Origin: a bacterium
Lineage (GTDB): Bacteria > CG2-30-53-67 > CG2-30-70-394
Direction of reading: 5' to 3'
DNA: 9,130 nucleotides
NCBI GenBank assembly: GCA_024278555.1
Contig: JAJRSX010000184.1
Span: 1 to 9,130, forward strand
The position numbers and the translations under genes were made by a program. Each line of letters opens with the position of its first letter. The first letter of the stretch is position 1. Shown piece by piece: positions 3,159-9,083 of the stretch. The notes under the pieces were generated by a model. That model was not told the DNA's origin. It worked only from the letters and a program-made list of their open reading frames with translations, and did no database searches.

Positions 3159-4349
3159 GTGGCGAACACCCTCCCACCCCTCCCCCTCCCGGGCGTTGAT
3201 CGCCCCCCCGCCTGGTTGGTTTTGGCGGATGGCTTCTGTTTTTCCGGCCGCTCGGTGGGGGCCGAGGGCGAGGCGGGCGGCGAGGTGGTCTTCAACACCG
3301 CCATGACCGGCTATCAGGAGGTCCTCACCGACCCCTCGTACCGCGGCCAGATTGTGGCGATGACCTACCCGCTGATCGGCAACACCGGGATCAACGAGGA
3401 GGATGTGGAGTCGACCCGGCCGTGGGTGGCCGGCTTCATCGTCCGCCAGGCGGCCCACCGCCCCTCCAACTGGCGCGCCACCCGATCGCTCCACGCGTAT
3501 CTGGCGGAGAACGGGGTGGTGGCGATCGAGGGGATCGATACCCGGCGGCTGGTGGCCCACATCCGCGACCATGGTTGCCAGATGGGGATCATCACCACCG
3601 CCGAATCGGACGTGGCGGCCCTGGCCGCGCGCGCCCGGGAGCTCCCTCCCATCGAGGGGCGTGACCTCGCCGCCGAGGTCACCTGTGGCGAGCCGTACCT
3701 CTGGAGCCAGGGGGCGTGGGGGATCGAGGGGGGCTTCGGCGAGGCCCCGCCGCCCCGCTTTCGGGTGGCGGCGCTCGATCTGGGGGTGAAGCGCAACATC
3801 TTGCGGCTGCTGGCGGATGCGGGGTGCAGCGTGCGGGTCTATCCGGCCTCGGCGACCGCCGCCGATCTCCTCGCCGACGACCCCGACGGCCTCTTCCTCT
3901 CCAACGGCCCCGGCGACCCGCGGGCGGTGGCCGGTGCGGTGGAGACGGTGCGGGGGCTGATCGGCGAAAAGCCCCTGTTCGGCATCTGCCTCGGCCACCA
4001 GATCACCGGGCTGGCCCTGGGTGGGCGGATCGTGAAGCTCCCCTTCGGCCACCACGGCGCCAACCACCCGGTGATGGACCTCGCCACCAGGCGGGTGGAG
4101 ATCACCAGCCAGAACCACAACTTCGCCGTCGACCCCGACTCCATCCGCGCGGCGGGCGAGGCGGTGGAGGTGTCGCACGTCAACCTCAACGACCGGACCT
4201 GCGAGGGGCTCGTGCACCGCGAGCTGCCCCTGTTCACCGTCCAGTACCACCCGGAGGCGAGCCCCGGGCCGCACGACGCGCGCTATCTGTTTGGGAGGTT
4301 TACCGGGATGATGGAACGCGCCCGCCGCGGGCGGGGGGATGGGGAGTGA
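3159..4349 (+). CDS. carA: Carbamoyl-phosphate synthetase small (glutaminase) subunit
   Basis: This 396-residue subunit hydrolyses glutamine and channels ammonia to CarB for carbamoyl phosphate, the shared precursor of arginine and pyrimidines. The N-terminal CPSase domain includes GEVVFNTAMTGYQEVLTDPS (41–60), YPLIGNTG and IDTRRLVAHIRDHG. The C-terminal class I glutamine amidotransferase domain starts near 200 and carries FLSNGPGDP (246–254), GICLGHQ with nucleophile Cys277, and QYHPEASPGPHDA with His364 and Glu366, so the catalytic triad is complete. Length is slightly above E. coli CarA. The start is GTG at 3159 with no clear ribosome binding site; an in-frame stop at 3099 and lack of other ATG/GTG codons support it, though a later TTG is possible. 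The last residues (GRGDGE) and the stop lie in the G-rich repeat that borders the following cassette. It should be cotranscribed with carB. Confidence 0.97.
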   Translation: MANTLPPLPLPGVDRPPAWLVLADGFCFSGRSVGAEGEAGGEVVFNTAMTGYQEVLTDPSYRGQIVAMTYPLIGNTGINEEDVESTRPWVAGFIVRQAAHRPSNWRATRSLHAYLAENGVVAIEGIDTRRLVAHIRDHGCQMGIITTAESDVAALAARARELPPIEGRDLAAEVTCGEPYLWSQGAWGIEGGFGEAPPPRFRVAALDLGVKRNILRLLADAGCSVRVYPASATAADLLADDPDGLFLSNGPGDPRAVAGAVETVRGLIGEKPLFGICLGHQITGLALGGRIVKLPFGHHGANHPVMDLATRRVEITSQNHNFAVDPDSIRAAGEAVEVSHVNLNDRTCEGLVHRELPLFTVQYHPEASPGPHDARYLFGRFTGMMERARRGRGDGE

Positions 4350-4366
4350 GGGATGGGGGATGGGGG
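4331..4366 (+). repeat. Left G-rich arm of the inverted repeat around the IVP-like gene
   Basis: This arm has five G-tracts (4333–4338, 4341–4344, 4350–4352, 4355–4359, 4362–4366) separated by AT or AGTGA. Bases 4346–4359 are a perfect 14-base inverted match to 4788–4801, and matching continues imperfectly on both sides. The arm contains the last codons and TGA stop of carA (4347–4349) and the ATG of the next gene (4353–4355). The G-tracts fit the usual pattern for a G-quadruplex on the coding strand and in the mRNA. Confidence 0.85.
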
Positions 4367-4769
4367 AAAGGAAGTACGCAGTTATCGGGATCTCGACGTG
4401 TGGCAGGGGAGTATGGAGCTGGCAACGCAGATCTATCGAGCGACCGATAAGTGTCCGCGGGAGGAGCTCTACGGGCTGACGAGCCAGCTTCGGCGTGCTG
4501 TCGTCTCCGTGCCATCGAACATCGCTGAGGGTCACACACGCGCCTCGACCCATGGTTTTCTCCACAACCTCTCGATTGCCCACGGCTCCCTCTCGGAGGT
4601 TGTGACCCAGCTATTGCTTGCACGGCGCCTAGAGTTTATCGCTTTCGAGAGGGCGACCGGTTTGTTGCAAGAGGCAGAACGGATTGGTCGCATGCTCCGT
4701 GGTCTCCCTCGGTCCCTCGCCAGTCGCGTGACGTTTTTTCCTCCAGTCCACAAGATATCCGGCCCGTAG
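4353..4769 (+). CDS. Four-helix-bundle protein of the 23S rRNA intervening-sequence (IVP/S23) family
   Basis: A 138-residue protein. Residues about 9–118 match the family pattern: [19 protein letters not shown] (10–28), [20 protein letters not shown] (39–58, followed by EGHTRAS), [20 protein letters not shown] (69–88), then a last helix with ARRLEF and [11 protein letters not shown]. It should form an antiparallel helical bundle, probably oligomeric. Members occur inside 23S rRNA insertions and, as the relative Avd, with diversity-generating reverse transcriptases; the biochemical role of stand-alone members is unknown and no reverse transcriptase is present here. Only three bases separate the carA stop from this ATG, so translation may be coupled. 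The first residues (MGDGGK) are encoded by the flanking repeat and are not family sequence; the tail after about 122 is also unconserved. Base composition is poorer in GC than carA and carB, which suggests later arrival. Confidence 0.85.
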
Positions 4770-4779
4770 GGCCGACCAC

Positions 4780-4813
4780 CCCCTCACCCCCCATCCCTCA
4801 CCCCCATCCCCGC
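4780..4813 (+). repeat. Right C-rich arm of the inverted repeat around the IVP-like gene
   Basis: On the plus strand this is a run of C-tracts broken by T, AT and TCA. Bases 4788–4801 are the exact reverse complement of 4346–4359 in the left arm; the outer part (4802–4813) also matches 4331–4345 apart from a few inserted bases. It starts 11 bases after the stop of the small gene and ends 21 bases before the carB start, so a stem formed by the two arms would place the whole small gene in its loop. Confidence 0.85.
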
Positions 4814-4834
4814 GAGCGCAGCGAGCCCCTCTCC

Positions 4835-8050
<3,216 letters not shown>

Positions 8051-8996: not shown

Positions 8997-9083
8997 GGAA
9001 CACGAAGGCACGAAAAGTTCAAAACACGAAAGAATTCAATCGGTTGTTTTTCGTGCTTTCCCCCTTTCGTGGTTTCGTGTTCC
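8997..9083. repeat. Long inverted repeat made of CACGAAA units
   Basis: The left arm 8997–9031 and right arm 9049–9083 pair at 28 of 35 positions around a 17-base loop (9032–9048). Three CACGAA(A) units per arm occupy matching positions, and the mismatches fall between them. The outermost ten bases (ggaacacgaa against ttcgtgttcc) pair perfectly. The element is AT-richer than its surroundings. In design it parallels the CACGGAA element at 12–178. It could act as a bidirectional transcription stop or a protein target; neither is shown. Confidence 0.85.

Follow-up and report, generated by a model that had tools for sequence, protein, structure and literature searches.

An IVP-family gene between carA and carB lies within inverted tandem-heptad arms, probably as part of a dispersed, REPIN-like repeat

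Background

Intervening sequences of 23S rRNA encode the S23p/IVP protein in Leptospira and Coxiella (PMC4990558). In the Coxiella rRNA element the IVP frame lies within a stem, the RNA is cut by RNase III as in the known 23S rRNA intervening sequences, and the open reading frame is decaying (PMC4990558). What the S23/IVP family does is unexplained, though the family is common and its structure has been solved.

RAYT/REPIN systems provide a second point of comparison (PMC3116915, PMC2817692). These consist of a few-copy gene flanked by an inverted short repeat, which is also scattered through the genome as gene-less palindromes.

The bias of long bacterial simple repeats towards heptamers has been noticed repeatedly and is so far unexplained. 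The STRR sequences of Calothrix are reportedly heptameric repeats of this kind. The heptamer GGGNATC occurs in Xanthomonas and Nostoc, with about 70 convergent inverted pairs in one Xanthomonas genome (PMC4692102), and the heptamer TAACTGA occurs in Beggiatoaceae, in a study that also refers to heptamers as the most frequent of the long simple repeats (PMC4679880). Neither paper mentions S23/IVP or intervening sequences, and our search of the open-access literature found no report of a link between IVP genes and heptads; a report that we did not see may exist.

Here we analyse a window of 9,130 nucleotides (the whole stretch of DNA under study) in which an IVP gene lies between carA and carB. 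We consider it probable that positions 4320-4827 are an IVP-carrying copy of a dispersed tandem-heptad palindrome and belong to a widespread REPIN-like system of gene plus repeat. A link between IVP and heptads would merge the two puzzles into a single question, namely whether the protein acts on the stem of the repeat, as DNA or as RNA.

Results and discussion

Architecture of the unit between carA and carB

Table 1 Features of the carA–IVP–carB region of the window
Feature	Position	Strand	Remarks
carA	3159..4349	+	Last codons (ARRGRGDGE) and stop codon written by the outer hairpin and 5' arm; compared with CarA ends of relatives
5' outer GC hairpin, GCCCGCCGCGGGCGG	4320..4336	+	Similar outer hairpins also bound IVP-less copies
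5' arm, G-rich heptads of GGGRTGR type	4335..4366	+	Dispersed in the genome
IVP gene (23S_rRNA_IVP / four helix bundle), 138 aa	4353..4769	+	First residues (MGDGG) arm-encoded
3' inner GC hairpin, CCGGCCCGTAGGGCCG	4759..4776	+	Contains the IVP stop codon; also found in IVP-less copies
3' arm, C-rich heptads	4776..4811	+	Complementary to the 5' arm
3' outer hairpin, GCGAGCGCAGCGAGC	4812..4827	+	Common outer hairpin of the IVP-less copies of the genome
carB	4835..8050	+	Same strand as carA and the IVP gene

The carA, IVP and carB genes share one strand (Table 1). The stop codon of carA (4347-4349) and the start codon of the IVP gene (4353) both fall within the 5' arm, with three bases between them. 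The IVP protein matched the profiles PF05635 (125 bits, cut-off 33.8) and TIGR02436 (119 bits, cut-off 24), and a homologue with solved structure is XCC0516 (2GSC, E = 1e-24) of Xanthomonas campestris, a species in which about 70 inverted GGGAATC pairs occur. PF05635 was the sole Pfam match of the gene product, which carries no match to the Y1 (HUH) transposase that characterizes RAYT/REPIN systems.

An earlier note on this DNA had described an IVP-family gene of lower G+C, lying between carA and carB in the loop of a potential stem formed by complementary arms, and each of these features was recovered. The G+C content is 59.7% in the IVP gene vs 71.3% in carA and 70.1% in carB, and at third positions the values are 66.7%, 91.9%, and 95.7%, respectively. 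The inverted arms 4342-4366 and 4781-4805 are 88% complementary over 25 nt, with overlapping registers at 4320-4344/4802-4826 and 4329-4352/4781-4804. Local alignment of the flanks, hairpins included, gave a score of 27.5, a measure to which a function in DNA and one in RNA would contribute alike; none of 1000 shuffles scored as high (maximum 16), and 149 further places in the window, taken with the same geometry, scored at most 14. The arm stem is also predicted in the fold of a 551-nt transcript (z = -2.95), both in the minimum-energy structure and in the centroid. Meanwhile, the computed energy of the RNA duplex between 4331-4366 and 4780-4813 was -68.9 kcal/mol, below all 1000 composition-matched shuffles (mean -50 kcal/mol, minimum -68.5), although this null is weak since G-rich and C-rich arms pair well regardless of their order.

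The computed stem-forming arms, the IVP-family frame in their loop, and a sporadic occurrence among relatives are likenesses to the 23S rRNA intervening sequences. The unit goes beyond a plain complementary stem, being built of tandem-heptad arms together with outer and inner GC hairpins. It differs from the rRNA elements in lying between protein genes and in having arms that are dispersed tandem heptads; to our knowledge, heptad-repeat arms have not been described for rRNA intervening sequences.

Dispersal of the heptads in the genome

Far from being absent elsewhere, the arms recur throughout the genome of the window, a draft of 211 contigs. The 16-mer GGGATGGGGGATGGGG, composed of GGGATGG heptads, was found at 231 places with at most two mismatches, against 43 for the reversed pattern. 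Most of these approximately 230 places have no IVP gene, and they are often short palindromes; among the matches listed, which cover the first hundred places, at least 11 pairs stand in the order G-arm then C-arm, about 80-130 bases apart. The gene-less copies consist of an outer hairpin, G-rich heptads, a GC hairpin, some 40 bases, a second GC hairpin, C-rich heptads, and a closing outer hairpin. The copy in the window agrees with these in its outer parts and in its 3' inner hairpin, and the IVP gene is added in the loop. It shares with heptameric intergenic repeats the tandem 7-bp units, the intergenic position and the occurrence at many places per genome, as well as the inverted pairing known from Xanthomonas, and differs from them in the association of its heptad arrays with a single protein family. 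Like RAYT/REPIN systems, it has inverted short repeats around a gene and gene-less palindromes dispersed elsewhere.

The genome holds one further IVP gene (C210), within inverted heptads of another sequence, AGTAGRA. This heptad was found at 76 places (1 for the control) in the window genome and at 68 (0 for the control) in a genome of the same genus, G001. At the equivalent site, the IVP gene of G001 carries AGTAGAC arms on both flanks. Arms of the two genomes at this site match their own partners (scores of 23.5 and 20) better than they match across species (16 and 12). Both arms have changed jointly between L002 and L043 at one locus, as in the Brucella group described below.

At the carA-carB junction, G001 (L062) has no IVP gene but a CCCCAACCCCCTCCC palindrome and a single AGTAGAA heptad array instead, and in other genomes of the class carA is followed by unrelated genes or by short gaps. 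The IVP unit is therefore most simply read as an insertion in the lineage of the window, at a junction that apparently collects other repeats as well. The earlier note had suggested that the unit might be a mobile cassette and had proposed comparing close relatives for an empty site. The cassette idea is supported by the genome-wide arms, by the junction of G001, and by the presence and absence of an orthologous unit between close relatives elsewhere (see below). As to an empty site, G001 lacks the gene, but no intact empty site was near enough to show the ends of the unit or to read a target duplication; the terminal hairpins and arms of the unit are inverted repeats.

IVP loci across phyla

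We surveyed 80 IVP loci of GTDB genomes from many phyla, which were those closest to a six-sequence profile rather than a random sample. At 58 of the 75 loci with enough flank, the inverted flanks exceeded their own shuffles by more than 4 standard deviations. A flank score of at least 14 was reached by 54 of these 75 loci, against 2/140 other genes of the same loci, and about a quarter of the IVP loci are without arms. In an independent set, collected by means of the Pfam model rather than by resemblance to the window protein, 15/23 loci had arms.

The arms are periodic. Mean best-window identity at lag 7 was 0.671 in the flanks and 0.449 in controls, with lag 14 as the harmonic; lag 8 was raised in a minority of IVP loci, and other lags stayed near the controls. 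Among the 54 armed loci the period is 7 in 46 and 8 in 8. The heptad unit varies by locus (CAGTTCT, AGTGGTC, AGGGACT, GGTCGTT, AGGATTC, and others). Across loci, heptads follow an RGKKRYY-type consensus with a nearly invariant G and are more alike than position-shuffled heptads. Read on the strand leading toward the gene, the upstream arm is G-rich in 50/54 loci. Heptad sequence correlated with IVP sequence (r = 0.245) and ceased to do so significantly below 60% identity; as the correlation is confined to close relatives, it offers no evidence for a deep recognition code, and a code of heptad–protein recognition was rejected.

IVP genes follow the direction of their surroundings. Where both neighbours were readable (51 loci), the gene runs with both in 34 cases and against both in 3, and the median gaps to the neighbours are 70 and 50 bases. 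The emphasis that the earlier note had placed on rRNA did not carry over to these loci: none of the 80 overlaps rRNA, and their arms form a heptad class that has not been described for the rRNA elements. A link to 23S rRNA was accordingly rejected for the sampled loci. In the window itself, an Rfam search gave no match, and the unit is flanked by carA and carB instead of being inserted into an rRNA helix.

Two IVP copies on a Calothrix plasmid lie within a longer duplication and hence reveal no element ends. The genome G015 has 19 IVP matches; many of its PF05635 matches come two by two, as short pieces lying on opposite strands approximately 200-400 bases apart, an arrangement unlike that of the heptad units.

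An orthologous unit in Brucella and Ochrobactrum

In the GTDB genus that comprises Brucella and Ochrobactrum, an IVP unit is flanked by a glutamine-synthetase-family gene on one side and by an FAD oxidoreductase on the other. It is whole in 13/35 genomes and absent in 21, and in one the contig breaks within an arm. The upstream flank of one genome without the unit shares 95% identity with the flank of a filled genome. Where the unit is present, the upstream gene ends in a stop codon rewritten at the arm. All 14 open reading frames (the 13 plus that of Paramesorhizobium) are intact. The IVP protein at this locus is under purifying selection (median dN/dS 0.088 for the 21 unsaturated pairs), a value that refers to one locus of a clade other than that of the window gene. 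This contrasts with the decaying frame of the Coxiella rRNA element (PMC4990558).

Array length in the Brucella group ranges from about 3 to 12 units, and the octads gave 17-42 matches per genome in four genomes. In three genomes GGGGAGT has become GGGCAGT in the two arms alike. Arms of one type match each other (CAGT-left/CAGT-right 24.2, GAGT/GAGT 23.6) better than mixed pairs (16-17). This joint change was probably one event, which could be explained either by pairing or by arm-to-arm (gene) conversion, the latter without any function of the stem.

At the site of the unit, one IVP-less genome of the group (L279, G072:C3:205150-205360) has a segment of 137 bases that is unrelated and contains a palindrome of its own, suggesting that this junction, like that of carA and carB, collects insertions.

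A probable gene-plus-repeat system and its possible action

These loci probably constitute a gene-plus-repeat system in which a few IVP genes per genome lie in inverted heptad arrays, while many shorter, gene-less palindromes of the same heptad lie between genes. The likeness to RAYT/REPIN systems is that of a few-copy gene in inverted repeats that occur also as gene-less palindromes; the differences are that IVP is a four-helix bundle without the Y1 transposase motif and that the repeats are arrays of 7 (or 8) bp units. We read the window unit not as a stray rRNA intron but as a REPIN-like combination of gene and palindromes in which the four-helix-bundle protein would take the place of the transposase. 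The wider generalization, to which we give a little less than even confidence, is that IVP genes with inverted heptad arrays form a distinct, phylum-spanning bacterial system beside RAYT/REPIN, that the protein acts on the stems, and that many heptameric repeats are its gene-less members. On such a view, rRNA intervening sequences would be cases in which an element mostly found between protein genes, in operons whose co-expression it may alter, has landed at an unusual place.

How such a system might work can be sketched. The IVP protein would bind the folded heptad arms, either as an RNA stem or as an extruded DNA hairpin, and would help the repeats to persist or spread. Because we know of no active site in the four-helix-bundle IVP fold, we propose that a catalytic enzyme is supplied in trans. 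In the window, carA, the IVP unit and carB would share a transcript, and ribosomes that have finished carA would run directly into the IVP start, so that the stem would form in the carA–IVP–carB transcript when translation is low and might then be cut. The stem in the operon may in this way affect the co-expression of carA and carB.

The same stem is the core of the strongest alternative, the one put forward in the earlier note, an intervening sequence of the mRNA. Pairing of the arms in the carA-carB mRNA would let RNase III cut the stem, which would free the IVP segment and leave carA and carB unequally expressed. The predicted stem in the fold of the whole segment and its centroid, an arm complementarity far above chance, the co-directionality of IVP genes with operons (34 vs 3), and the RNase III cleavage of known 23S rRNA intervening sequences, that of Coxiella included (PMC4990558), are all consistent with it. 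We regard it nonetheless as rather unlikely, given that none of the 80 IVP loci is in rRNA and that G+C-rich stems of this length may be attenuators that are not cleaved. Moreover, the IVP start codon lies inside the stem, and efficient folding would therefore shut the IVP gene, yet selection acts on a gene of this type at the single locus analysed for it.

Alternatively, the unit could be a passenger, moved by ordinary transposons or their MITEs, with the heptad arms as by-products of slippage in a palindrome. The relevant evidence comes from two genomes of a genus in the window's class, in which one IVP fragment, used as a DNA query, found 96 (G006) and 90 (G004) matches. These belong to a MITE family with terminal repeats GGATCATCTCC...AGTGGGT and GGTTCTTCTCC...AGTGGGT and with 8-bp target duplications at A/T-rich sites, exact in TAAATAAA, TAACTTAC, and ATAAATAT and 7/8 in others. 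Its octad arms lie inside the terminal repeats, and its interiors are internally deleted IVP genes or are without IVP. We take terminal repeats and duplications of this form to be of the ISL3 kind; G004 encodes an ISL3 transposase (PF01610), and an end near it resembles the MITE end. Gene-less palindromes can therefore be deletion derivatives of IVP units, amplified by an outside transposase. This transposition mechanism holds for the G006/G004 family only, its movers are the ISL3-type terminal repeats outside the heptads, and its amplification is no demonstration that heptad arms move by themselves. Against the passenger reading, a profile search of the window genome found no ISL3 transposase, for which reason ISL3 ends were rejected for its heptad-armed copies, and the gene-less copies inspected from that genome share no terminal repeat beyond their hairpins. 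Nor would one expect a passenger to be associated with period-7 or period-8 arms across phyla or its protein to be under purifying selection, and we consider this reading unlikely.

A further candidate for the mover is a Y1/HUH (RAYT-like) transposase that would mobilise the heptad palindromes, with IVP as its accessory. The layout of the repeats is REPIN-like, and PF01797 was present in 24/24 IVP-bearing genomes and in 18/36 without IVP (p = 1e-5 over 60 genomes, with kinship ignored). However, Y1 genes are common, and none of the four in the window genome is flanked by heptads, so that they were rejected as bearers of the heptads. With this absence, and with relatedness uncorrected among the 60 genomes, the co-occurrence is a lead only, and we hold a role of IVP as Y1 accessory to be distinctly unlikely. 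One of the four Y1 genes (L092, G000:C70:14836-15177, reverse strand) has AAAAGGGGACAGGACCC palindromes on both sides, a RAYT-like arrangement whose repeats are unlike the heptads.

A reverse transcriptase was considered on account of Avd, the accessory protein of diversity-generating retroelements, which belongs to a related four-helix-bundle family. The Avd model NF033474 matched the window IVP protein weakly, with 25 bits against a cut-off of 80. The window genome has no PF00078 reverse transcriptase, which sets the unit apart from these retroelements, and reverse transcriptases showed no association with IVP over the 60 genomes (p = 1). Both the reverse-transcriptase link and an identity as a diversity-generating retroelement were rejected.

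Finally, the probability that G-rich and C-rich intergenic simple sequence lies beside an ordinary small gene by chance is very small, for although such stretches pair readily, as the mean energy of the shuffled duplexes illustrates, the control genes (54/75 vs 2/140) exclude it for IVP loci as a class and the window shuffles (27.5 vs 16) for the unit in the window, and chance arms were rejected.

Two other palindromes, both gene-less, were observed in the window. The one at 12-178 has 51-nt arms that are 80% complementary and made of a repeat of CCACGGAAT/CCACGGAAG type; its plan is the same, and the unit measures about 9 bp. The second, at 8997-9083, has 35-nt arms of ACACGAAG-type units, also 80% complementary.
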